Shown here: one piece after another, positions 5,831 to 50,462 of the stretch
Layout of the letters: every line of letters begins with the position of its first letter
Position numbering within the stretch: position 1 is the first letter of the stretch
NCBI RefSeq assembly: GCF_021295335.1
Contig: NZ_JAIWOT010000001.1
Location: forward strand, 3,452,001 to 3,516,000
DNA from: Komagataeibacter sp. FNDCF1
Lineage (GTDB): Bacteria; Pseudomonadota; Alphaproteobacteria; Acetobacterales; Acetobacteraceae
Direction: 5' to 3'
Length of the DNA stretch: 64,000 bases
Translations under genes and position numbers: made by a program
Notes under the pieces: model-generated
Databases searched by the model: none
What the model was told of the DNA's origin: nothing
Seen by the model: only the letters and a program-made list of their open reading frames with translations

Positions 5831-7020
5831 CCCGCCCGTGCCTCCCTTTTGCGCGCGTTCAGCAGTCCAAGGACGATGCCCACGCCACCCGTGGCGCACA
5901 GGCCGCCCAGCAGGAACACGATGTCATAGCCAAAACGGTCCGCCAGCAGTCCGGCCACCGGGCCGGTCGCGCCATAGGCCAGATCCTGAAAGGCGGCGAA
6001 CCCGCCCAGCGCCGTGCCGCGCATGTTGGGCGGGACCAGGCGCACCACCTCCACCCCGAGGGAGGGATAGACCATGGAGCACCCGGCCCCCGTCAGCACC
6101 GCCCCCGCAAAGGCCAGCAGCGGGGAGGACGCACACCACAGCAGGTACTGCCCCGCCGCCTCGATCATGAGCGAGAACAGCGCAACCTTCAGCCCGCCGA
6201 TGCGGTCGGGCAGGTGCCCGCATGTCAGACGCCCGGCAACGAACGCCACCCCGAAGCATGTCAGCCCCAGCCCGGCATGGGACCAATGCGCATGGATGAA
6301 ACGCAGCGGCAGGAACGCGCCCAGTGCGCCAAAGCCCACGCCCTGCAGCGTTACCCCCATGCCCTGCCAGCGGATGGTGCCCAGAATGCGCCAGAACGGC
6401 GGTCTGGCACCGGCATGCGGGGTGGAAGCGGGTACGCCCTGCACCAGCGCCAGCCCCATCAGTGGCAGCAGGGCCGATACCAGCATGACTGTCGCGATCC
6501 CGCCATGTTCATACAGGCTCAGCCCGATCGGGCCACCTGCGGCAAAGGCGCCGTACATGGCCGCCCCCGTCCAGGCCAGCACGCGGCCCGCGCGTTCATG
6601 CCCCATAAGCCCGATACCCCAGCCGAGCATGCCGACAATGGTCAGGCTCTCGCCTACGCCCAGCAGGAGCCTGCCCGCGATCAGTATGGTGTAACGGGCG
6701 GCAGGGGGGAGCATGGACAGGCCGGCCAGCGCACAGATCAGGCTTGCCGCGGCATACAGCGCCAGGCCCGCGCGCATGCATGGCCGCCCGCCCCGTATGT
6801 CGGCATAGGCGCCGGAGTGGTTGCGGCTGAGGATGGTGGAGAAAAACGCAATGCCCACCGCCAGCCCCGCCAGCCCGTTGCCATAGCCCGGCCAGTGCAG
6901 GACCGCGACCGGCAGGGCCGCCAGCGGCAGCGCCACCGCCATGTAGGACAGGAACAGGGCAATGGCCAGTCTTGCCACCAGCCGGGGGGCCGGATCAGAT
7001 TTCACGCGTGATCCGTACAT
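5827..7020 (-). CDS. Major facilitator superfamily transporter
   Basis: A 397-residue polytopic inner-membrane protein with about 12 hydrophobic segments, beginning near ARLAIALFLSYMAVALPLAAL and ending [15 protein letters not shown]. The cytoplasmic loop RNHSGAYADIRGGR between segments 2 and 3 matches the MFS GxxxDRxGRR-type region in position. The start is taken as ATG 7020, overlapping the end of the monooxygenase gene by 26 bp; GTG 7005 is the alternative. Place in the operon suggests uptake or export of the compound handled by the UPF0261/PEP-hydrolase pair. Substrate unknown. Confidence 0.85.
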   Translation of the reverse strand: MYGSRVKSDPAPRLVARLAIALFLSYMAVALPLAALPVAVLHWPGYGNGLAGLAVGIAFFSTILSRNHSGAYADIRGGRPCMRAGLALYAAASLICALAGLSMLPPAARYTILIAGRLLLGVGESLTIVGMLGWGIGLMGHERAGRVLAWTGAAMYGAFAAGGPIGLSLYEHGGIATVMLVSALLPLMGLALVQGVPASTPHAGARPPFWRILGTIRWQGMGVTLQGVGFGALGAFLPLRFIHAHWSHAGLGLTCFGVAFVAGRLTCGHLPDRIGGLKVALFSLMIEAAGQYLLWCASSPLLAFAGAVLTGAGCSMVYPSLGVEVVRLVPPNMRGTALGGFAAFQDLAYGATGPVAGLLADRFGYDIVFLLGGLCATGGVGIVLGLLNARKREARAG

Positions 7021-7381: not shown

Positions 7382-8728
7382 GCCCTTTCCCGCGCACAAT
7401 GCATGCAGGCGGTGCAGGGCTTCCGTCAGGTCCGGCAGGCTGGCGGGGCCAAGGCACAGGCGTATGCCCGCCCTGCCCGGGGAGTGCGGGCTGGCCATGA
7501 AGGGACGCAGCGGTGTCACTTTTACGTCGTGCAGCGCGGCTTCGGCCTCGAAGCGCATGGCCTGTTCCACCGGCATGGGCATCCAGGCATGGAAGGCGTC
7601 ATACGATGGCGGGACAAGATGCGGGCCAAGGCGCTGCATGGCCAGTTCCCTGCGCCGCCGGGCTTCCGCACGCAGGGCCTGCCGCACGGAAGCCGCGGTG
7701 CCATCCAGCATCCATTGCGCCATCATGGCGTAGGACAGCGGCGCGATCATGAGTGATGAATTGAGCAGCGCCTCCCGCGCCGCCGCCATGAAGCGCTGCG
7801 GGGGCGCCAGCGCGCCGATGCGGAGACCGGGGCTTAATGTCTTGGACAGGCTGCTGACATAAAAAGTCCGCTCCGGCGCCAGCGTGACCAGCGGGGGTAG
7901 CCTGTCATCGGCTGCGCAGTCATACACGTCATCCTCTATGATTAGGGCATCATGGGCGCGGCACAGGCGTACGATGTCCTGCCTGCGGGCACGGTCCATG
8001 GTGGCGGTGGTGGGGTTGTGCATGGTGGGCGTGACGTACAGCACGCACTGTCCCGGCGCGTTGTCGCGCAGCGCGCCTTCCAGGGCCGTGGGCATCAGGC
8101 CGGACTCATCCATCTCCAGCCCGCGTGGGGCCAGTCCCGCCTGGCGCAGCAGGGTCAGCATGCCGGGATAGGTCAGTTCCTCGGTCAGGATGACACGGGC
8201 TTCGCGCGTACTGGCGGCCAGCGCCACGCCCAGCGCCTGCTGTGCGCCACTGGCCAGCAGCAGTCCCTCGGGCGCGATGTCCACACCCAGTTCCGCCAGC
8301 CAATGGCCCATGATCCGGCGGTGTTCGATATGCCCGGCAATGGGGGGATAGACATTGAACAGCGTCGGGTCGACCGTGCGTGCCAGGCGGGAAAGCGTGC
8401 GGGCCAGCGCGCGGTCACTGAACATGGGTGGCGGCATGTTGGCGGACAGGTCGATGACGCAGCCCCTGCCACCGGGGTGCGAGGCCACGAAGGTGCCGCG
8501 GCCACGCACGCTGCGTACCAGCCCGCGGCGTTCAAGCATGCCATAGGCACGTGTGACGCTGCCAATGCCGATATCCAGCCGCCATGCCAGGTCACGATGG
8601 GCGGGCAGGCGGTCGCCCGCGTTCAGTTTTTCGCCCAGTATGTCGCCTGCCAGCGCATCGGCCAGACGTTCGGCAGGGGAGGTATCGCCCGCGGGCAGAT
8701 GGGGATGCCATGGGGAATGCAGGCGCAT
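7367..8728 (-). CDS. MocR-type GntR-family regulator with aminotransferase-like domain
   Basis: A 453-residue fusion of an N-terminal GntR winged helix (SPAERLADAL, LPAHRDLAWRLDIGIGSVTRAY, RRGLVRSVRGRGTFVA) to a PLP-dependent class-I aminotransferase-like domain. PLP-site features include the SSLSKTLSPGLRIG segment, whose Lys would bind PLP, and EDDVYDC. Such MocR proteins sense amines or PLP derivatives. Start ATG 8728 is chosen from the first GntR residue; the frame stays open further upstream. It lies head-to-tail before the ABM-MFS-UPF0261 operon, which it probably controls through the 7339-7381 repeats. Confidence 0.9.
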   Translation of the reverse strand: MRLHSPWHPHLPAGDTSPAERLADALAGDILGEKLNAGDRLPAHRDLAWRLDIGIGSVTRAYGMLERRGLVRSVRGRGTFVASHPGGRGCVIDLSANMPPPMFSDRALARTLSRLARTVDPTLFNVYPPIAGHIEHRRIMGHWLAELGVDIAPEGLLLASGAQQALGVALAASTREARVILTEELTYPGMLTLLRQAGLAPRGLEMDESGLMPTALEGALRDNAPGQCVLYVTPTMHNPTTATMDRARRQDIVRLCRAHDALIIEDDVYDCAADDRLPPLVTLAPERTFYVSSLSKTLSPGLRIGALAPPQRFMAAAREALLNSSLMIAPLSYAMMAQWMLDGTAASVRQALRAEARRRRELAMQRLGPHLVPPSYDAFHAWMPMPVEQAMRFEAEAALHDVKVTPLRPFMASPHSPGRAGIRLCLGPASLPDLTEALHRLHALCAGKGKSVT

Positions 8729-8905
8729 CGGGCCAGCCTGTCCTGTTGAGGGATGCGGCAAGCCATAGCAGGTCGGGGGCCGGGGTGGAATGTGGGGTGA
8801 TGCAACAGGGTGCGGCGCATTGCGGCCATGATCCCTGCATCCGAACGGTCTGTCATTATCGCACGTTTTGTATTTTATATATGGATCGTGCGCATGGTTC
8901 CCGGG

Positions 8906-8954
8906 TCGTACCCCACGGATCTGGCGCTGCCGGCGGCCGATCCGTGGGGTACGA
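8906..8954. repeat. Long perfect inverted repeat (16-bp arms, 17-nt loop)
   Basis: Arms at 8906-8921 and 8939-8954 (TCGTACCCCACGGATC and its exact complement) flank a GC-rich 17-nt loop. It lies in the 338-bp gap between the divergent MocR-type regulator and the GH20 gene. No T run follows on either side, so a simple terminator is unlikely; an operator, cruciform or mobile palindrome are options. An AT-rich tract at 8860-8882 may hold promoters. Confidence 0.8.
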
Positions 8955-40700: not shown

Positions 40701-41087
40701 CTAAAGCAGGGGAATCTGCGCCGGGTCATTGCGCCAGTTCTGGCGGGGCGGCGGCGGAATATAGGGGCCGCGGCTCAACACCTTGCTGACCCATGACCGG
40801 TCCGCACCCGCGCGGTTGGCAATATCATCAACACACAGGCCCATCATCCGATACATCTGGATGCGCCACGCGCGGCAGATCGGTATTTTTATGTATTCGC
40901 CGCCAAAATGGTTGGCCAGGCAGCGGGCGATATCGTCACCATATGTCATGGCAAGGTCGGAGCCTTCCCATTTCCGGGGCACCCACAGACGCCGCCCGCA
41001 TGCGCTTTCAACAAAAGACAGCGCCATGTCTTCCCCGACATCGGCAACAATCCAGTCAATCTGTGCGGGTGGGCGAATATTGGTCAT
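40701..41087 (-). CDS. mor: Mor-like transcriptional activator of middle/late genes
   Basis: 128 residues of the Mor/C family: ARCLANHFGGEYIKIPICRA, followed by the helix-turn-helix MGLCVDDIANRAGADRSWVS and a basic/proline tail. In Mu, Mor turns on the middle promoter and C the late promoters; only one such gene is present here, so it may do both. It is the second gene after the early terminator, overlapping the 66-residue gene by 4 nt. Confidence 0.88.
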   Translation of the reverse strand: MTNIRPPAQIDWIVADVGEDMALSFVESACGRRLWVPRKWEGSDLAMTYGDDIARCLANHFGGEYIKIPICRAWRIQMYRMMGLCVDDIANRAGADRSWVSKVLSRGPYIPPPPRQNWRNDPAQIPLL

Positions 41088-41284
41088 GTCACCTCTTTAC
41101 CATCATGCTTTGCCAGAAGGGCGACAATATCCAGCATTATCGTGCTTTCACTTGCCGCGACCATCTGGTCCTGAATGCGCGCCGCGTCCTCGCCACTGGT
41201 GGCGTGCCGCCCGGCAATTACGGACTGACGGACAACGGAGCGGATTTTGTCGCGCAGGGCGTTCAGATCATCATCAGTAATCAT
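41084..41284 (-). CDS. Small hypothetical protein upstream of mor
   Basis: 66 residues, MITDDDLNALRDKIRSVVRQ, helical, with a central ARIQDQMVAASESTIMLDIV. First gene after the early-region terminator and coupled to mor by an ATGA overlap. Function unknown. Confidence 0.7.
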   Translation of the reverse strand: MITDDDLNALRDKIRSVVRQSVIAGRHATSGEDAARIQDQMVAASESTIMLDIVALLAKHDGKEVT

Positions 41285-41336: not shown

Positions 41337-41364
41337 AAAAACCGCCCCAGATAGGGGCGGCTTC
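41337..41364 (-). terminator. Terminator of the early operon
   Basis: CCGCCCC/GGGGCGG stem with a 5-nt loop; on the minus strand it is followed by six T. It lies 22 bp past the zinc-finger gene and before the mor operon, separating early from middle transcription. Confidence 0.88.
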
Positions 41365-41385
41365 ATGTAATGCGTGCGTGGATTG

Positions 41386-41616
41386 CTATGTTCGTCTCGG
41401 CCTCAAGCATCGTCCGATCCGGTTGCGCCACCGGATGACAGTGGTAGCGATCCGCCGTGACAGGCTTTCTATGCTTCTATCGTCCAATATATCCGTGCAA
41501 AGGTGAATGCATTCATCGCAGATATATACCTTCGGCCCAGCGATTATCATCTTCACCTCATGCTGCGATTTTCCACAGAACGAACAGTATACCGTCGGTT
41601 TTTCTGTCTTGCTCAT
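41386..41616 (-). CDS. Stand-alone ClpX-type C4 zinc-binding domain protein
   Basis: 76 residues. Residues 10-42 ([20 protein letters not shown], then [11 protein letters not shown]) are nearly the N-terminal zinc-binding domain of bacterial ClpX, with ligands C11, C14, C33 and C36. There is no AAA+ domain; a basic tail ([13 protein letters not shown]) follows. In ClpX this domain dimerises and docks adaptors and substrates such as MuB and lambda O. Last early gene, starting 2 nt after gemA with AAGGG upstream. It could tune host ClpX during transposition or induction; that is inference. Confidence 0.9.
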
Positions 41617-41618
41617 CG

Positions 41619-42077
41619 CTATTTCAAACCCTTCTCAAGCCGCGCTTTCCACCGTTTCAGACCCTCAATCACCTTCCGTCCCTGCACGCCATCAAGGAAT
41701 TCGGGCGCGGTGATGCCACCGGGATGGTCTGCCGTCATGGTCTGGCGCTGGACGTAGGCGCGCAGGGCTTCGCGCGTGCCGCCGCTGTCCAGCATTGGGC
41801 CCATGTCCTTCCAGATCGCATAGATCATGCGGACATGCGGCTTGTCGCTGGTGGACAGGCTGCCTTTCTTCGGCTTCCAGCCCAGCGTGCGGAAATGGGC
41901 CAGCACCTTTTCCAGTGCCGATGTGGTGGCGTCCTTCGCGCTGGTATGGCCGGTCATGCGGTGCAGGATGTCGCGGTAGGCTTCATCCGGCAGTGCCAGT
42001 TCCTTGCGGGCGATGTGCAGCTTGGCGTAGATCGCGCCGCGTGCCGGGCTGGCCCTACGGGCCTGCGTGGTGGTCAT
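41619..42077 (-). CDS. gemA: GemA-like protein (Mu gp16, DUF1018)
   Basis: 152 residues: [59 protein letters not shown] and the repeated-core [20 protein letters not shown]. This is the gp16/GemA family, which in Mu affects host gene expression and DNA topology. ATG 42077 is chosen because the upstream part of the long frame is the reading shadow of the membrane-peptide gene. Confidence 0.9.
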
Positions 42078-42081
42078 GTCG

Positions 42082-42261
42082 CTATTTCCCTGTGCCGAGG
42101 ATGTGCATCTTGCAGTCGTATCGGGCGTGCCCGCGCCTGATGCAGGCGGCGTAGCCGGGGTTATCGAAATCGGGGTCGCGGGGCAGGCCGAAATACAGCA
42201 GGCCCGCGAACGAAAGGACCAGGATGGCCAGCATGCCGACCATGGCCCACGCATCCCTCAT
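42082..42261 (-). CDS. Small single-TM early protein
   Basis: 59 residues, MRDAWAMVGMLAILVLSFAG with one membrane segment and a Cys-containing tail (YAACIRRGHARYDCKMHIL). Its ATG overlaps the DUF3164 stop (ATGA). Function unknown; possibly a superinfection or membrane factor. Confidence 0.6.
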   Translation of the reverse strand: MRDAWAMVGMLAILVLSFAGLLYFGLPRDPDFDNPGYAACIRRGHARYDCKMHILGTGK

Positions 42262-42923
42262 AGTGCCGAGAATTGCAGGCTGATCGCGCGCCATTTTTCA
42301 TCCGGCCTGTCGCGCTCGTAAAACCGAAGGTAGGACTGCGACCCCGTGACGCGGACACTATCCTCAATCGCCGCGCAGGCATCGGGCCATTTGGGATGGG
42401 GGATATCGACCTTCTTCAGCTTTTGCAGGTTCTCCACATTAATTTTTCCGGTCTTCTCGTCCCGGTTGAAGGCGCTATCCAGCAGGTCACGTATCCACGG
42501 ATCAATCTGCCCCATCAGATCGTTCAGTACTTCGGCCACCAGTGCCTGGGCTGCAACAATCGCACCATCAACGGCACGGTAATCACTGACGGAAAACTCG
42601 GCCTTCATCAGGTCGTCATACGATGTGATGGTAAAGCCGCCCCTGCGCCCGGTCGGATTGGCGTTATAGATCGCCATCATGGACCGGACATACAGTTCGC
42701 CATCCGCTGCAAGCTGGCGTTTCTGTTCCGCGATCAGGTCGCGCAGGGCGCGTGCGCCTTCAACCATCTTCACCGTAATGTCGTTCTGCAGAAGGCAGCG
42801 CACCTGCACATGCTGACGCAGGTTTTCGCCGCCGCGTGCATTGCGGATCGTGCCTTCGCGGGGCGGCTGATACACGTCCTGTCCTGCTTCAAGAGCAGCA
42901 GCAATGCGTGTGGTGGCGTTCAT
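42258..42923 (-). CDS. DUF3164 early protein
   Basis: 221 residues: MVEGARALRDLIAEQKRQLA, LYVRSMMAIYNANPTGRRGG, FNRDEKTGKINVENLQKLKK and IPHPKWPDACAAIEDSVRVT, the DUF3164 pattern found in the early operons of Mu-like phages next to gemA. Role unknown. 4-nt overlaps with both neighbours. Confidence 0.9.
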   Translation of the reverse strand: MNATTRIAAALEAGQDVYQPPREGTIRNARGGENLRQHVQVRCLLQNDITVKMVEGARALRDLIAEQKRQLAADGELYVRSMMAIYNANPTGRRGGFTITSYDDLMKAEFSVSDYRAVDGAIVAAQALVAEVLNDLMGQIDPWIRDLLDSAFNRDEKTGKINVENLQKLKKVDIPHPKWPDACAAIEDSVRVTGSQSYLRFYERDRPDEKWRAISLQFSAL

Positions 42924-44085: not shown

Positions 44086-44579
44086 GCCTTTTCCTCTCCT
44101 TCACGCAGGGCCGCACGCGCAATCGCGCGGAAATTGCGGGCGTCATAAATTGATGGTGGGGCGTTGATGATGTGCGACAGCGCATCGGTCAGGCGGTCGA
44201 TGGTCCGATACAGGGCGTGCTGATGGCGCTCCAGTTCCCGGATCACCACTGCGTCACTGTCACGAATAGCGTCCAGATCGCTGCGGCGGACCACATCAGT
44301 CCATTCGCCGTCAGGAAGGAGTGCCGTATTAAGCATCCCGCAATCCGGCGCGCCGTCGATGGATCGAATGTGCGCAGCCGTTTCCACATCCTTGATCACA
44401 CGAACGGGCCGCCCCAACGCAATGATGATGCTCTCAATCATGCATTCCGGCTTTTCGCCCTGCGCCACAACCATCACGCTGTAGCCGTTGGCTGCGCAGG
44501 CGCGCTTGATCTTCTCTGCTGTAATGGTGGCCGGGATCAGGTATCCGGCCACGGTTTTCGTGTTGTCTGACATAATCAT
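44082..44579 (-). CDS. Hypothetical early protein after B
   Basis: 165 residues with IKRACAANGYSVMVVAQGEK and a long C-terminal helix (VVIRELERHQHALYRTIDRL). The start at 44579 overlaps the B stop as ATGA; ATG 44573 is the alternative. Not recognised. Confidence 0.65.
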   Translation of the reverse strand: MIMSDNTKTVAGYLIPATITAEKIKRACAANGYSVMVVAQGEKPECMIESIIIALGRPVRVIKDVETAAHIRSIDGAPDCGMLNTALLPDGEWTDVVRRSDLDAIRDSDAVVIRELERHQHALYRTIDRLTDALSHIINAPPSIYDARNFRAIARAALREGEEKA

Positions 44580-45559
44580 CCCCCAACCCGACTGAAGATC
44601 GGCATCTTCCCGGTCATATGCTCTGCCCAGGCATGTTTCAGGTCATCGCCCGTGATGTGGCTGTTCCCGCTGATGCGGGCGATACGCATGGCGCTGCGCA
44701 GCACCTTGGTCATGGAGCGCAGGCCGCCCGGCTTCTGGGCAATGCCCTTGGCGCGGTTCTTCACCTCATCATCCTGAATGTTCCATTCGGCCAGAATGGC
44801 GCACATATCGCGCTCCATCGGGCACTGGATGTAACGGCGCAGGCCGATGCGACTGAATAGCTGCGCATGCTCCTTGCTGCGGCCAAGCCCATCAATCTTG
44901 TTGTTCAGCGGCGCATTACCCGCGATCACGACGCCAATTTCCGCCAGATCATGCAGGGAGCGGATTTCTTCCAGCGCCTGAATGCTCAGGTGATGGGCTT
45001 CGTCCACAATCAGCAGGCCGCCCGTATCCGCCATCCGCTCAATGATGGCCTCGTCCAGGCCGGAGCCGCGCTCGCGCACCCCCAACTCCTTGGCGATGCG
45101 CGTCAGGATCGCAGTGGGTGACTTCATGGCCGGGCGGGCCGTCACCATCCACACGTTGTTGTTGCGGCGCTGGTAGGCTTTCAGCGCTACCGTCTTGCCT
45201 ACACCAGCATCTCCCGCGATCATGGCCATGTCCGGGCCAAACTTCGCGCCATCAAGCATGGCGAAAATGCGCGTTGCCGTCGCGGTCATGATGAACCCCG
45301 GAACCGTCGGGGTCATGTCGCGCTCTTTCTTCCGCGCATCCAGAGATTTCAGCCATTTTTCCACGGCGTCATCAATCTTGGCGTTGTTGCCCGCGTAACT
45401 GTTGTTCAGCCACGCGCTGTAGGTGGAATAGGCAACGCCCATCGTATCGGCTGCCTGTCGGTTAGAAAGTCCATGCTGTTCCTGCGCCAGGCGGGCATGG
45501 TTGCGCAGGCTGTCCGTATCAACGGGCACAGGGGTAGCGTTCGCGGTTTCTTTAACCAT
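44576..45559 (-). CDS. B: Transposition ATPase B (MuB-like AAA+)
   Basis: 327 residues. An N-terminal helix-turn-helix (LSNRQAADTMGVAYSTYSAW) is followed by a P-loop ATPase: Walker A MIAGDAGVGKTVALKAYQ, Walker B GLLIVDEAHHLS, sensor VVIAGNAPL, and a C-terminal helical domain. MuB coats target DNA, delivers it to the transpososome and gives target immunity. Located directly after A with a 49-bp gap. Confidence 0.95.
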   Translation of the reverse strand: MVKETANATPVPVDTDSLRNHARLAQEQHGLSNRQAADTMGVAYSTYSAWLNNSYAGNNAKIDDAVEKWLKSLDARKKERDMTPTVPGFIMTATATRIFAMLDGAKFGPDMAMIAGDAGVGKTVALKAYQRRNNNVWMVTARPAMKSPTAILTRIAKELGVRERGSGLDEAIIERMADTGGLLIVDEAHHLSIQALEEIRSLHDLAEIGVVIAGNAPLNNKIDGLGRSKEHAQLFSRIGLRRYIQCPMERDMCAILAEWNIQDDEVKNRAKGIAQKPGGLRSMTKVLRSAMRIARISGNSHITGDDLKHAWAEHMTGKMPIFSRVGG

Positions 45560-45608: not shown

Positions 45609-47603
45609 TCAGTATTCGTCCGGGTCAACAAGCCGTAATTCAGCCCGTTCGGCACGTTCCATTTCCATGGCCCGCACCATGTAGTCTTCCGCGTCTTCAT
45701 CCTGATGGTGCTGGATAGCCAGCGCGGCATTGCCGGATGTCAGTGCGGCGGGGCGGAACGGGCGCACCACCTTGGCCTCCATGGGCGTTTCTTCCGCCGC
45801 ATCGGGATCGGGGGCGTAAATGTCCTGCAATTCCGCGATGGACATGCGGTTCTGCGCTTTTTCCATATCCTTCTGCGCCTTGATCCACGCCTTGCGTGCC
45901 CGGTTATGGGACTGGGCAGCGCCCTTGTCGGCAAAGCCCGCCGCTGCAAGGCACGGCGCTTCACACACGAAAGTGCCGTCCAGACGGTAAACGAACACCG
46001 ATCCCTGCAACGCCTGCGGGTCAAACCGCACCACAAGCTGCTGCCCGCGCAACGCGGTCAGTTCCTCAGCCCAGAAGCGGTTGCCTTCCAGCTTGAATTC
46101 ACCCGTGGTCTTGTCCGCCCGGATGGCTTCCGCCGCCAGCAGCCACAGCCGACGCTGCTCCGGCGTGGCCTTGGTGATGGGAGCGGTAGCATAAGATGCC
46201 TCGAAAGCCTGTTTGAAGCTAAGTTTTCCACCGCATACCTTGCTGCGCCGCCCTATGCGCTCGTTGTGCTCCTGAATGCCTTCCGCCACCACCTTGATGA
46301 ACAACTCCAGGGGCACGGACTGGCTGCCGTAGTTCTCTGGCTTGTTCATCGGGTTATTCCCGGCATACGCCCCCTCGAACAGCGGATGCTTGGCCAGCCC
46401 CTGCGCCAGATCGCGCCAGGCGCGCTCAATCGGCTTCGACTGCCCGCTATAGGGATTAACAAACCGCACATCCACCCCAAGCTGGGGCATGATCCCCTGC
46501 GGTTCATCATCCTTCAACTTGAAGCGGTAGCGGTTTTCGACCCCGCCGGTCAGCCACTTGCTGGCGAAGGCGCGCCCGTTATCCAGATAGCATTTCTGCG
46601 GGATACCATAGCGCTCCACCATGTCACCAAACGCCAGACGGACCATCTCCTTATTTTCGGAAATATCCAGACGCCATGACAGGATCATGCCGGTAAACAG
46701 ATCCTGAAAGGCCACTAAAACAGGTCTTACAGGCTTCTGAATGCCCGGATAATCAACGAACACGTCAAAGACATGGCCATCGACATTCACTGCCTCCATG
46801 GCGTGGAAGATGGACCGGTCACGTTCCTGCGCGGGGAACATGCGGCGCAGGGCGTCGTTACCTTCCCGGCACAGGGTCAGCAGCGCCGGTCCCAGTGCGT
46901 CCATGCGCCGCTTGAGCGTCTTTGCTGATGGCAACTTCCATCCCTCCTTTTTGGCTTGCCCCTGCAAGCGCCGGTAGCAGTCATTGAAGGTCGGGCCAGA
47001 CAGGCGCAGGTAATCGGCCTTCAGGATTTCCCATGCCTCACGCGGACACTCCGCGCGCGACTTGGCCGTGGCGTAATGCGGTGCCAGGGCGGCCAGCCAG
47101 TCGCATCGGTTCAACCCACGCACGTCCCGATACCAGTTGTATATCGTGGTCGTTCCTACGCCGCGCAGGGCCGCAATCTGTATGATCGCGCAATTCTTGC
47201 GCACCCCGTGCTGGATCAGCGTCTCGACTGCATCCAGTATCTGGTACGCCCGGCGGGCTTCCGCCTTTCTATTCTCCGGCATGGCATCAAAGCGCCACCA
47301 CAAGTCTTCACGTTCGCGCCTCGTGCGGTCTGCGTCCGGCTTCTGTGCTGCCGGATTGGCGGCCTGCATCCGCATGACCAGGGCGGCCTGTGCTGGAAGC
47401 GGGAGGGAATACATGGTGAATTCGTATCCACCACCCCGGCCGCTGCGTTCACGCCATGTCTGACCCTTAAGTTCAGGGTTCAACCATCCTTCCGCGTTGC
47501 ATCTTTCACGCATATTTCGTTCGGTAGCAGGGAGAGCGGGAAGCGCCATTGCCGCCAGTTCGGTTAGCGAAAACCACTGCTGCTGTGCAATTCCCGCCAT
47601 CAC
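45609..47603 (-). CDS. A: DDE transposase A (MuA-like)
   Basis: 664 residues, the size of MuA (663). The N-terminal Mu DNA-binding domain (QQWFSLTELAAMALPALPAT) is followed by end-binding helices (ILDAVETLIQHGVRKNCAII) and the catalytic core with D275 (VNVDGHVFD), D341 (YLDNGRAFAS) and E393 (KPIERAWRDL), spaced as D269/D336/E392 in MuA. The C-terminal part carries the nonspecific DNA- and B/ClpX-contact region. Catalyses integration and replicative transposition of the prophage. Confidence 0.97.
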   Translation of the reverse strand: MMAGIAQQQWFSLTELAAMALPALPATERNMRERCNAEGWLNPELKGQTWRERSGRGGGYEFTMYSLPLPAQAALVMRMQAANPAAQKPDADRTRREREDLWWRFDAMPENRKAEARRAYQILDAVETLIQHGVRKNCAIIQIAALRGVGTTTIYNWYRDVRGLNRCDWLAALAPHYATAKSRAECPREAWEILKADYLRLSGPTFNDCYRRLQGQAKKEGWKLPSAKTLKRRMDALGPALLTLCREGNDALRRMFPAQERDRSIFHAMEAVNVDGHVFDVFVDYPGIQKPVRPVLVAFQDLFTGMILSWRLDISENKEMVRLAFGDMVERYGIPQKCYLDNGRAFASKWLTGGVENRYRFKLKDDEPQGIMPQLGVDVRFVNPYSGQSKPIERAWRDLAQGLAKHPLFEGAYAGNNPMNKPENYGSQSVPLELFIKVVAEGIQEHNERIGRRSKVCGGKLSFKQAFEASYATAPITKATPEQRRLWLLAAEAIRADKTTGEFKLEGNRFWAEELTALRGQQLVVRFDPQALQGSVFVYRLDGTFVCEAPCLAAAGFADKGAAQSHNRARKAWIKAQKDMEKAQNRMSIAELQDIYAPDPDAAEETPMEAKVVRPFRPAALTSGNAALAIQHHQDEDAEDYMVRAMEMERAERAELRLVDPDEY

Positions 47604-48390: not shown

Positions 48391-49199
48391 GCTGCTGCCC
48401 TTTCTTCTGGCTGATAACCGGGAAGGTGCGGCGCGAAGAACTCAATGATCTGCTTGCGCTCTGCAGGGGACGCCTTGCGCCAGATACCCGCAACCTTCTC
48501 AATCACACCCGGCGGCGTGGGCTTGGGGCGACCGGCAAGCTGACGCACAATCTCGGACACCTTCCGCACGCCCGGCCATTGGGACACGAAATCCGCGATC
48601 TGGCGCTGCATGTCCGGCTCCTGCTTGGCCAGTTCATCAAGCTGTGCGCCGCTATCGGCCAGCCAGGTGCCCGTGATTTTTTCGCGGACATCCGGCATGA
48701 TGTGAGTGTAACGGGCAATGGACCGGCGGATGGTGCTGGCATCAATGCCCAGCTTTTCGCCCGTGCTTTTAGTGAAGGAAGGGATCAAGTGTGCAAGGTT
48801 GCACTCTTGATCTGACTTCCGGTCGCCACCGTGCTTCGTTCCCGGGTGCAGTTCCTCATAAACCGCCTTGCGTTCGGCCAGAAACGTGGCCTTGTCCAAC
48901 GGGCTCAACTCCCGGCGGCACAGGTTTTCATCAATTTCCAGCAGCTTCGCTTCCAGATCGGAAGCCTTCACGATGATGGCAGCGGCATGGTCAATGCCCG
49001 CCAGCTTCATCGCAGCCAGACGGTGGCCGCCAGAAATCAGCGCATACTTGCCAGACCGGCCAAGCTTGCGGACCTCAATGGGTGCCCGCTGGCCGTTCTC
49101 CTGCATGGAGGCGGCAATTAGTGCCGACCAGTCTGGATCAACCGCCCGCAGGCGCTCGCCAACCTCGATGTCAGCTACAGGTATCTGTTCGATGTTCAT
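48387..49199 (-). CDS. ParB/Spo0J-like partition-domain protein
   Basis: 270 residues. The N-terminal ParB domain includes VGERLRAVDPDWSALIAASM, GQRAPIEVRKLG, YALISGGHRLAAMKLAG (the GxxRxxA CTP-binding box) and the helix-turn-helix around GEKLGIDASTIRRSIARYT. Phage copies like this act as regulators or DNA-organising factors rather than in plasmid partition. Coupled to ner by a 4-nt overlap. Confidence 0.88.
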   Translation of the reverse strand: MNIEQIPVADIEVGERLRAVDPDWSALIAASMQENGQRAPIEVRKLGRSGKYALISGGHRLAAMKLAGIDHAAAIIVKASDLEAKLLEIDENLCRRELSPLDKATFLAERKAVYEELHPGTKHGGDRKSDQECNLAHLIPSFTKSTGEKLGIDASTIRRSIARYTHIMPDVREKITGTWLADSGAQLDELAKQEPDMQRQIADFVSQWPGVRKVSEIVRQLAGRPKPTPPGVIEKVAGIWRKASPAERKQIIEFFAPHLPGYQPEERAAA

Positions 49200-49501
49200 G
49201 CCGCCACTCCGTTTTGACGGTGCGCGTCATGCGGCAGGGCGGTAGGTGTCCTGATAACGGTCATGGAAACAGGAGACCCGTCATTATGGTAGCGACCCGG
49301 CCAGATATTCTGCGGCTCACGCCCCAGCACCCTGGCAATCTCGCGCTCGATCGGAACCGAATACCCCACGGTTCCGATGGTCTTGCTCACAGCACGGCTG
49401 TCGCGGCCAATCAGGGTGGAAAACTTCGCAAGCGAGCCGTATCGCTTCCGAAGCTCCGCCTTGATGTCCTCGGCGTGCATTCCTCTAGGCTTCTGTGCCA
49501 T
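49196..49501 (-). CDS. ner: Ner-like negative regulator of early transcription
   Basis: 101 residues of the Ner/SfsB (Nlp) family: MHAEDIKAELRKRYGSLAKF, the helix-turn-helix SLAKFSTLIGRDSRAVSKTI, then VPIEREIARVLGREPQNIWP. In Mu, Ner shuts down the repressor and early promoters during lytic growth. First gene of the early operon, divergent from the repressor. The last 35 residues exceed the usual length. Confidence 0.9.
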   Translation of the reverse strand: MAQKPRGMHAEDIKAELRKRYGSLAKFSTLIGRDSRAVSKTIGTVGYSVPIEREIARVLGREPQNIWPGRYHNDGSPVSMTVIRTPTALPHDAHRQNGVAA

Positions 49502-49629: not shown

Positions 49630-49768
49630 GCTCTAAAAAGGCACATCCGAGTTGTTTTATGTGGAAAACCTGTGCGTAAGCACCGGAAGTGATTGAAATG
49701 ACTACAAAAAATAACTCTAATACGGTTGATGAGCACAACATCCGAGTTCCGAGTGTAAACTCGGATGT
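49613..49768. promoter_or_regulatory. Repressor operator array (CCGAGTT half-sites)
   Basis: TCCGAGTT occurs at 49613-49620. ACATCCGAGTT is at 49643-49653 and 49738-49748, and its complement AACTCGGATGT at 49758-49768. CCGAGTGTAAACTCGG (49749-49764) is a perfect interrupted palindrome. The sites flank the divergent early and repressor promoters and run into the first codons of the repressor gene, as expected for autoregulated phage immunity. Confidence 0.7.
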
Positions 49769-50462
49769 GACTTCCTCTGATCCGGTGGTTGAAAAACTGC
49801 GTGAAGCGATAAGAAGCGCTGGAGGCAATAAGCGGGTATCGGCGCTATCAGGGGTGCCTCTCGGATCTCTTACAAACTATCTTGGTGGTCGCCAGATGCC
49901 TTTCGGTGCCGCCTTAAAGATCGCCCGCGCCTGCGCCGTGTCTCTTGAGTGGCTGGCTGGTCGTGAGGATACGCCAAGGCAGGAAGCCCGCGTTCTGTCT
50001 GCACCGATGCAGGACGACGACGATCTAACCTACATCGACTATTACAATATCGCTGCGTCCGCAGGCTTCGGCCTGTGCGCCGATGAGGCAGAAAAACCGG
50101 AGAAAGTAGCCATTTCGAAGCGCTTCCTGCGGCAAGACCTTGGCCTGGAACCAAACCGCGCCCTCATGCTGGAAACCCGTGGTGACAGCATGGAGCCTGC
50201 ATTGCACGCGGGGGACCGGCTGGTAGTCGATACCCGCCAGCAGCACATCCTTGATGGCATCCACGTTCTGGTCGTGAATGGCGGCCTGCTGGTCAAACGC
50301 CTGTCAGCGGAACTGGATGGCAAGGTGCGGATCGCATCTGATAACCCCCTCTACCCGCCACTTTTTGCAGATATGGCCCGCGTGCGCTGGGGAAAGCCAG
50401 ATGGAGACAGCACAATCACCGTAATCGGTCGCGTCGCCTACAGACTACAGGCAATGTCATGA
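49698..50462 (+). CDS. Phage repressor, XRE helix-turn-helix plus S24 peptidase
   Basis: 254 residues. The DNA-binding part (GGNKRVSALSGVPLGSLTNY) is followed by a LexA/CI-type self-cleaving domain: candidate Ala-Gly cleavage site at 122-123 (ASAGFG), Ser164 in RGDSMEPALHAGDRLVVDT and Lys200 in VLVVNGGLLVKRL. It maintains lysogeny and should be inactivated by RecA-stimulated cleavage. Mu itself uses a non-cleaving repressor, so induction control differs here. ATG 49698 has GGAAG 8 nt upstream; GTG 49689 is the alternative. Confidence 0.93.
   Translation: MTTKNNSNTVDEHNIRVPSVNSDVTSSDPVVEKLREAIRSAGGNKRVSALSGVPLGSLTNYLGGRQMPFGAALKIARACAVSLEWLAGREDTPRQEARVLSAPMQDDDDLTYIDYYNIAASAGFGLCADEAEKPEKVAISKRFLRQDLGLEPNRALMLETRGDSMEPALHAGDRLVVDTRQQHILDGIHVLVVNGGLLVKRLSAELDGKVRIASDNPLYPPLFADMARVRWGKPDGDSTITVIGRVAYRLQAMS

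Follow-up and report, generated by a model that had tools for sequence, protein, structure and literature searches.

A predicted free-standing ClpX zinc-binding domain as optional cargo behind gemA in a Mu-like prophage of Komagataeibacter

Why would a prophage carry the zinc-binding domain of ClpX as a small protein of its own? The question is raised by a 64,000-nucleotide stretch of the Komagataeibacter sp. FNDCF1 genome (hereafter the window, whose numbering is used throughout), in which an open reading frame on the minus strand, running from an ATG at 41616 to the end of its stop codon at 41386, encodes a free-standing protein of 76 aa. Its C4 zinc domain (residues 10–45; 41482..41589, minus strand) scores 69.3 bits (2.4e-19) with the Pfam family zf-C4_ClpX (PF06689), whose cut-off is 27, and the protein also matches two chains of the E. 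coli ClpX zinc domain, 1ovx (2.4e-17) and 2ds5 (3.3e-17), with phrog_6797 and phrog_12435 as its best phage families in PHROGs. All four zinc-ligand cysteines of the CxxC...CxxC pattern are kept (C11, C14, C33 and C36). The predicted monomer model is modest overall (mean pLDDT 68.8, pTM 0.46) and reaches pLDDT 82–88 over residues 11–40; Foldseek ranks 1–8 for this model are all ClpX or ClpX zinc domains, five of them at E <= 0.001.

Judged from its sequence, the 76-aa protein is a short phage-encoded ClpX zinc domain without the ATPase, separate from the host clpX. The frame ends after 76 aa with no AAA+ ATPase domain, as a first-pass annotation of this DNA had also read it, and the host's own full clpX is a separate open frame of 464 aa (G000:C1:1278734). 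The full-length ClpX model TIGR00382 gives 53.2 bits, far under its cut-off of 370.75, and the protein is therefore not a ClpX. The same annotation held that it reproduces the ClpX C4 domain almost exactly; this is too strong, since 26 of 39 residues of the domain are identical to host ClpX, and the tail that follows is unlike ClpX.

The genes around it are those of a transposable phage. On the minus strand lie a MuA-like transposase (45609..47603; PF02914, PF09039; phrog_310), a MuB-like target-capture ATPase (44576..45559; PF09077, PF13401; phrog_296), a DUF3164 early gene (42258..42923; PF11363) and gemA (41619..42077; PF06252 with 86.6 bits on the enclosing ORF, 93% identical to that of a sister prophage in the same genome), as well as a Mor-like late activator (40701..41087; phrog_836 at 1.1e-15, with Pfam Mor at 21.8 bits where 24.9 is the cut-off), and from these neighbors we conclude that the prophage is Mu-like. 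A putative repressor with an S24 (LexA-like) peptidase domain is encoded on the plus strand (49689..50462; PF00717, 4.2e-15), and an HTH_35 gene (49196–49501) lies on the strand opposite to it. The zinc-domain gene starts after a gap of 2 nt from the gemA stop, and is followed by an intrinsic terminator-like hairpin (41338..41364, minus strand), whose core sequence is common to the ten loci compared. The hairpin folds with z = -3.76 (0 of 200 shuffles equally stable; terminator-like sites numbered 3 where 1.1 were expected), and the zinc-domain gene is therefore the last before this terminator-like hairpin, in keeping with its earlier description as the final gene of the early operon, 2 nt after gemA. 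From this position we infer early expression. Beyond the hairpin comes a 66-aa gene (41084..41284, minus strand) that is conserved in the sister prophage.

Among relatives, the zinc-domain gene is optional accessory cargo, and not a core Mu-like early gene. The interval from the gemA stop to the terminator (41365..41618, minus strand) is a variable slot, which is either empty, or encodes a hydrophobic protein, or encodes the zinc domain. The distance from the gemA stop to the terminator is 270 nt in the window prophage and 48 nt in two loci with an empty slot (L053 and L218); it is 194 nt in L213 (a Komagataeibacter xylinus prophage), L214 (a K. rhaeticus prophage), L216, L217, L219, L240 and L241, in all of which it encodes a hydrophobic protein of 52–53 aa. 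By their coordinates, L240 and L241 duplicate L213 and L214, and the slot protein of L217 is that of L214; counted as seven distinct close relatives, window included, one has the zinc domain, two are empty and four have the hydrophobic protein. One of the empty slots is that of the sister Mu-like prophage (L053), in which the gene order around gemA matches, the same terminator follows the gemA stop with no intervening gene, and the flanks align with those of the window prophage on either side of the gap. The hydrophobic protein has two likely membrane helices by eye, and in L214 it had no match in Pfam, PHROG or PADLOC.

The more distant L215 and L220 likewise showed no zinc domain. Of 299 family genomes sampled, 26 have gemA, at 29 places in all. 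At the 28 places outside the window we found no zinc domain near gemA (flanks of up to 1.5 kb, several loci being cut by contig ends), and no second copy of the gene turned up in 19 congeneric genomes, 3 of which carry this gemA lineage. Conservation beside gemA, which the first-pass annotation had proposed as a check, thus failed to appear, with the gene at one of 29 gemA places in family genomes and in one of seven distinct close relatives. Upstream of gemA, the sister prophage encodes a Lar-like restriction-alleviation protein (L053 921–1205, G000:C1 ~794,500; 29.3 bits for PF14354, whose cut-off is 28.6; phrog_599, labeled “moron, auxiliary metabolic gene and host takeover”), and no such ORF was seen by eye at the equivalent place in the window prophage. 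Together with the changing content of the slot, this gene suggests that the stretch carries swappable accessory genes, which fits the trans-acting role considered below but does not prove it. Base composition adds little here: the GC content of the zinc-domain gene is 0.50, compared with 0.636 for gemA, 0.578 for DUF3164, 0.605 for MuB, 0.603 for MuA and 0.557 for the next gene, but the slot lies at 0.45–0.50 in all ten loci compared, whatever its content, so that GC is no mark of foreign origin and we dropped that argument.

Evolutionarily, the domain and host clpX differ at 40 of 117 bases, distributed 9/7/24 over codon positions 1/2/3, and none of 20,000 runs of a random-substitution simulation kept 26 of 39 residues (mean 14.7). 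The divergence from host clpX is, on this comparison, constrained, and part of the constraint may predate capture. For the domain, the codon-position bias and the simulation rule out a decaying fragment of host clpX, again with the proviso that some constraint may be older than the capture; the decaying copy with failing ligands that the first-pass annotation had named as the refuting outcome was not what we found. The closest segments compared were ClpX of other Alphaproteobacteria (72%), followed by the nearest free-standing protein at 68%. A tree of 90 short segments was poorly resolved and placed the 76-aa protein outside the ClpX group of the host family, and an AU test on ~40 columns did not reject a joint clade with that group (p 0.357; long-branch rows L088, L086, L087, L243, L237 and L244, all free-standing, and L166, a ClpX, were dropped beforehand).

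What could such a domain bind? According to PMC7804408, trigger factor, SspB and RssB all dock on the dimer formed by the ClpX zinc-binding domain (ZBD), to which the substrates lambda-O and MuA also bind. In the same account, F16 and I46 of E. coli ClpX lie in the hydrophobic pocket of the dimer, overlapping the lambda-O site, and mutants at these residues lose the trigger-factor enhancement of lambda-O degradation while retaining lambda-O degradation, so that the pocket is not the whole of docking (PMC7804408). These residues correspond to F13 and I43 of the 76-aa protein. The first is F in all 48 other free-standing segments and all 41 ClpX segments, under a segment-picking pattern that allowed only F or Y there, and the second is I, V or L in 45 of the 48, at a position free of pattern selection. 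Since the pattern also fixed the cysteines, the I46 figure is the only unselected one; the comparison excludes L149, L070 and L236, whose rows are cut off. The host encodes an SspB-family protein (142.7 bits), the C-terminal part of which carries VVSLAAFRRK. The ClpX zinc-domain dimer is described as very stable, and pairing with host ClpX may therefore be slow.

The setting also invites a role specific to Mu. In the model phages, ClpXP handles lambda-O and remodels the MuA transpososome (PMC7804408, PMC3562280), and the C-terminal part of MuA is given as the place of both ClpX and MuB contacts (PMC3562280, PMC3362531). The first-pass annotation had ClpX contacting MuB through the zinc domain; the relevant sections of PMC7804408 name MuA, and not MuB, as a ZBD-binding substrate, and a search of open-access PMC found no paper on MuB binding by this domain. 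Its argument from the Mu c repressor has no direct carry-over either, because the putative repressor here is S24/LexA-like. The MuA of the window prophage ends in LRLVDPDEY, which is different from the basic C-terminal tag of Mu MuA, RRKKAI. A role in Mu transposition or its timing is possible, if weakly supported. The broader proposal of a free, phage-made ClpX domain keeps its intact ligands and docking residues, and loses conservation beside gemA, the MuB contact and the direct repressor argument. The nearest phage case that we found in the literature is the Rac protein encoded by phiKMV-like phages of Pseudomonas, whose presumed targets are ClpX and HslU, although cleavage persisted without them (PMC7552054).

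Behind the domain, residues 47–76 (41389..41478, minus strand) form a basic tail with a net charge of ~+9 and a low-confidence predicted helix, which runs from the domain into the tail at a pLDDT of ~50. An ungapped comparison with the next stretch of host ClpX gives 1 of 28 residues identical, and the tail, having no ClpX counterpart, may give the 76-aa protein a different job. Its amphipathic moment of 0.73 is borderline, being reached by 4.9% of shuffles. Two other proteins combine a zinc domain with a basic and hydrophobic tail of ~30 residues, namely L084 (from a family genome) and L109 (from an IMG/VR contig); they differ from the window protein in lying near tyrosine integrases, in not being Mu-like by a Mu-protein search, and in sequence (43% identity each). 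Tail similarity rests on short stretches; among pairs involving the window, window/L109 is the standout (p ~0.0005) and window/L084 is weak (p ~0.05), both uncorrected for the 21 pairs tried. Viral scans found no relative for L084, and for L109 they returned 17 loci, comprising 12 ClpX, 4 free-standing proteins (one of which is L109 itself) and 1 cut by a contig end. L109 (6001–6234) also has a gene order in common with L169 (~8650–8931), in which a small conserved protein and a tailed zinc-domain protein are accompanied, farther on, by a tyrosine integrase.

Is the protein a peculiarity of this prophage? Among the best 80 of 159 IMG/VR stretches, 62 have a free-standing domain with four ligands, including many near-copies that are not independent; the rest are 16 full ClpX, 1 domain cut by a contig end (L149) and 1 without the first cysteine pair (L163). 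L153 and L155 were left out of the 62 as full ClpX with a variant Walker A motif, and L002, from the first viral scan, was rejected by eye as an antisense chance match within a scaffold-like gene. At least 8 of the 299 family genomes, window genome included, have a free-standing copy (the genomes checked being those with two matches). A Mu-protein search of 102 loci returned, besides the sister prophage (L170), L151 as the sole match, a Mu-like phage in which a 108-aa zinc-domain protein (5989–6315) lies between DUF3164 and gemA, after an HU-like gene. Other architectures include, in a family genome, a Glyoxalase_8 domain with a free ClpX zinc domain fused after it (L171, 3952–4626) and, in two phage contigs, free zinc-domain proteins (L001, 4974–5282; L165, 5995–6285) whose C-terminal ~50 residues are conserved between them (alignment score 179).

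Phage records matching the zinc-domain protein numbered 51, and in the eight examined the annotation indicates short zinc-domain proteins for PhiR44_2, D6, PP9W2, Cr30, PACT201 and EM, and full ClpX for Phosso and phage G. We take P88 and PhiR44_2 to be P2-like phages, D6 to be P1-like and Cr30 to be T4-like. The PhiR44_2 gene matches 218 of 5426 complete E. coli genomes, and in 109 of these the match covers at least 80% of its length; half of 220 matching records are at 60–80% identity. Across 22 distinct genes of the P88/D6 type, pooled dN/dS is ~0.39 for the zinc domain and 0.47 for the remainder (pairs not independent). All E. coli matches listed bear the RefSeq name “ClpX C4-type zinc finger protein”, as does the annotation of an E. 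fergusonii gene from a plasmid collection, and the kind has therefore already been named. PHROGs labels the free-standing families as unknown or “protease”, and PADLOC gave no match. A similarly named C4-type zinc finger of phage KS10 was set aside as DksA/TraR-like and not ClpX-type, as far as its description goes. The kind of protein is thus known and named. Among the papers listed in searches of open-access PMC, none was, by title and abstract, about phage-encoded or free-standing ClpX zinc domains or their function, and no paper was found on Komagataeibacter with a Mu-like prophage.

Compared with known proteins, that of the window resembles the ClpX N-terminal zinc domain (PF06689; 1ovx, 2ds5–2ds8) in its fold, its four cysteines and the F16/I46 residues, and differs in having no AAA+ ATPase and a 30-residue basic tail of its own. 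The phrog_6797 proteins of the E. coli phages P88, PhiR44_2 and D6 are likewise small ClpX zinc domains without ATPase, but with ~60 extra N-terminal residues and a short C-terminus, and in other phage types with other gene neighbors. The 65-aa protein of Pseudomonas phage PP9W2 is an almost bare zinc domain (phrog_12435, 65 positions, “protease”), which is without the basic tail and lies outside a Mu-like early cluster, in a cluster of replication and recombination genes.

We favor, at a probability of roughly 0.45, a reading in which the protein acts in trans as a competitor or partner-swapper at the docking site of host ClpX. An accessory gene at the end of the early cluster would make a free ClpX-type zinc domain, presumably in the early phase, and the product would most likely fold as the usual zinc-domain dimer. 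It could then bind in trans the usual docking partners of the ClpX zinc domain (SspB as adaptor, trigger factor and ZBD-dependent substrates) or, alternatively, pair with the zinc domains of host ClpX; either way, the choice of proteins taken by ClpXP would change, with a possible effect on the phage cycle. The domain and its fold, the intact ligands, F13 and I43, the host SspB, the constraint (that of the P88/D6-type genes included), the cargo slot, the free homologs and the replication and recombination setting of the PP9W2 gene all point toward this trans-acting role; against it stand the single copy in 19 congeneric genomes and closest sequences that are ClpX, ahead of any free-standing protein, as well as the lambda-O degradation retained by the pocket mutants, the stability of the zinc-domain dimer and a tail unlike ClpX.

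Some of the same observations can be read as those of a recent passenger with little or no function, for instance a segment acquired from clpX or a different phage that has yet to be lost. The one copy in the lineage, the slot that is empty or otherwise filled in relatives, and the ClpX nature of the closest sequences would all suit such a history, and so would a gene GC below that of the core neighbors, to which we give little weight given the equally low slots elsewhere. Yet start, domain and ligands are intact, differences from host clpX are biased by codon position, and free-standing relatives are widespread, which together make a passenger quite unlikely.

The tail, for its part, would suit a phage adaptor, in which the zinc domain is paired with ClpX or placed next to it and the basic tail grips a cargo (protein, DNA or membrane). 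A host or phage protein would in this way be brought to ClpXP, or ClpX be anchored at a particular site. The amphipathic pattern of the tail, the comparable tails of L109 and, less clearly, of L084, and the varied extra parts joined to zinc domains in other proteins are in favor; however, a similarity made of short stretches from 21 uncorrected pairs, a borderline amphipathic score, a tail pLDDT of ~50 and the lack of a cargo candidate leave an adaptor rather unlikely. We consider it improbable, too, that the zinc domain has been re-used away from ClpX as a small DNA-, RNA- or protein-binding phage regulator. The basic tail and a location within a cluster of DNA-acting proteins are compatible with re-use, as is the variation in free-standing copies of K19, V24 and L27, which are invariant in the 41 ClpX segments; the ligands and F16/I46 residues, needless in such a new role, are nonetheless retained here.

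It is tempting, if more speculative than the trans-acting role itself, to extend that role beyond this prophage. Unrelated temperate phages may on repeated occasions have detached the docking domain from ClpX to serve as a soluble decoy or handle, in many cases joined to an extra segment of the phage's own, so that host ClpXP is re-aimed or blunted in early infection, with the Mu-like phage as one case and its slot serving swappable host-takeover genes; we hold this wider picture as a tentative one, which we would sooner doubt than assume. The E. coli version, with matches in the 218 complete genomes above, makes free zinc-domain proteins testable in E. coli. The zinc domain of ClpX is a docking hub, and a phage copy of that hub alone would be a simple means of re-tuning proteolysis.
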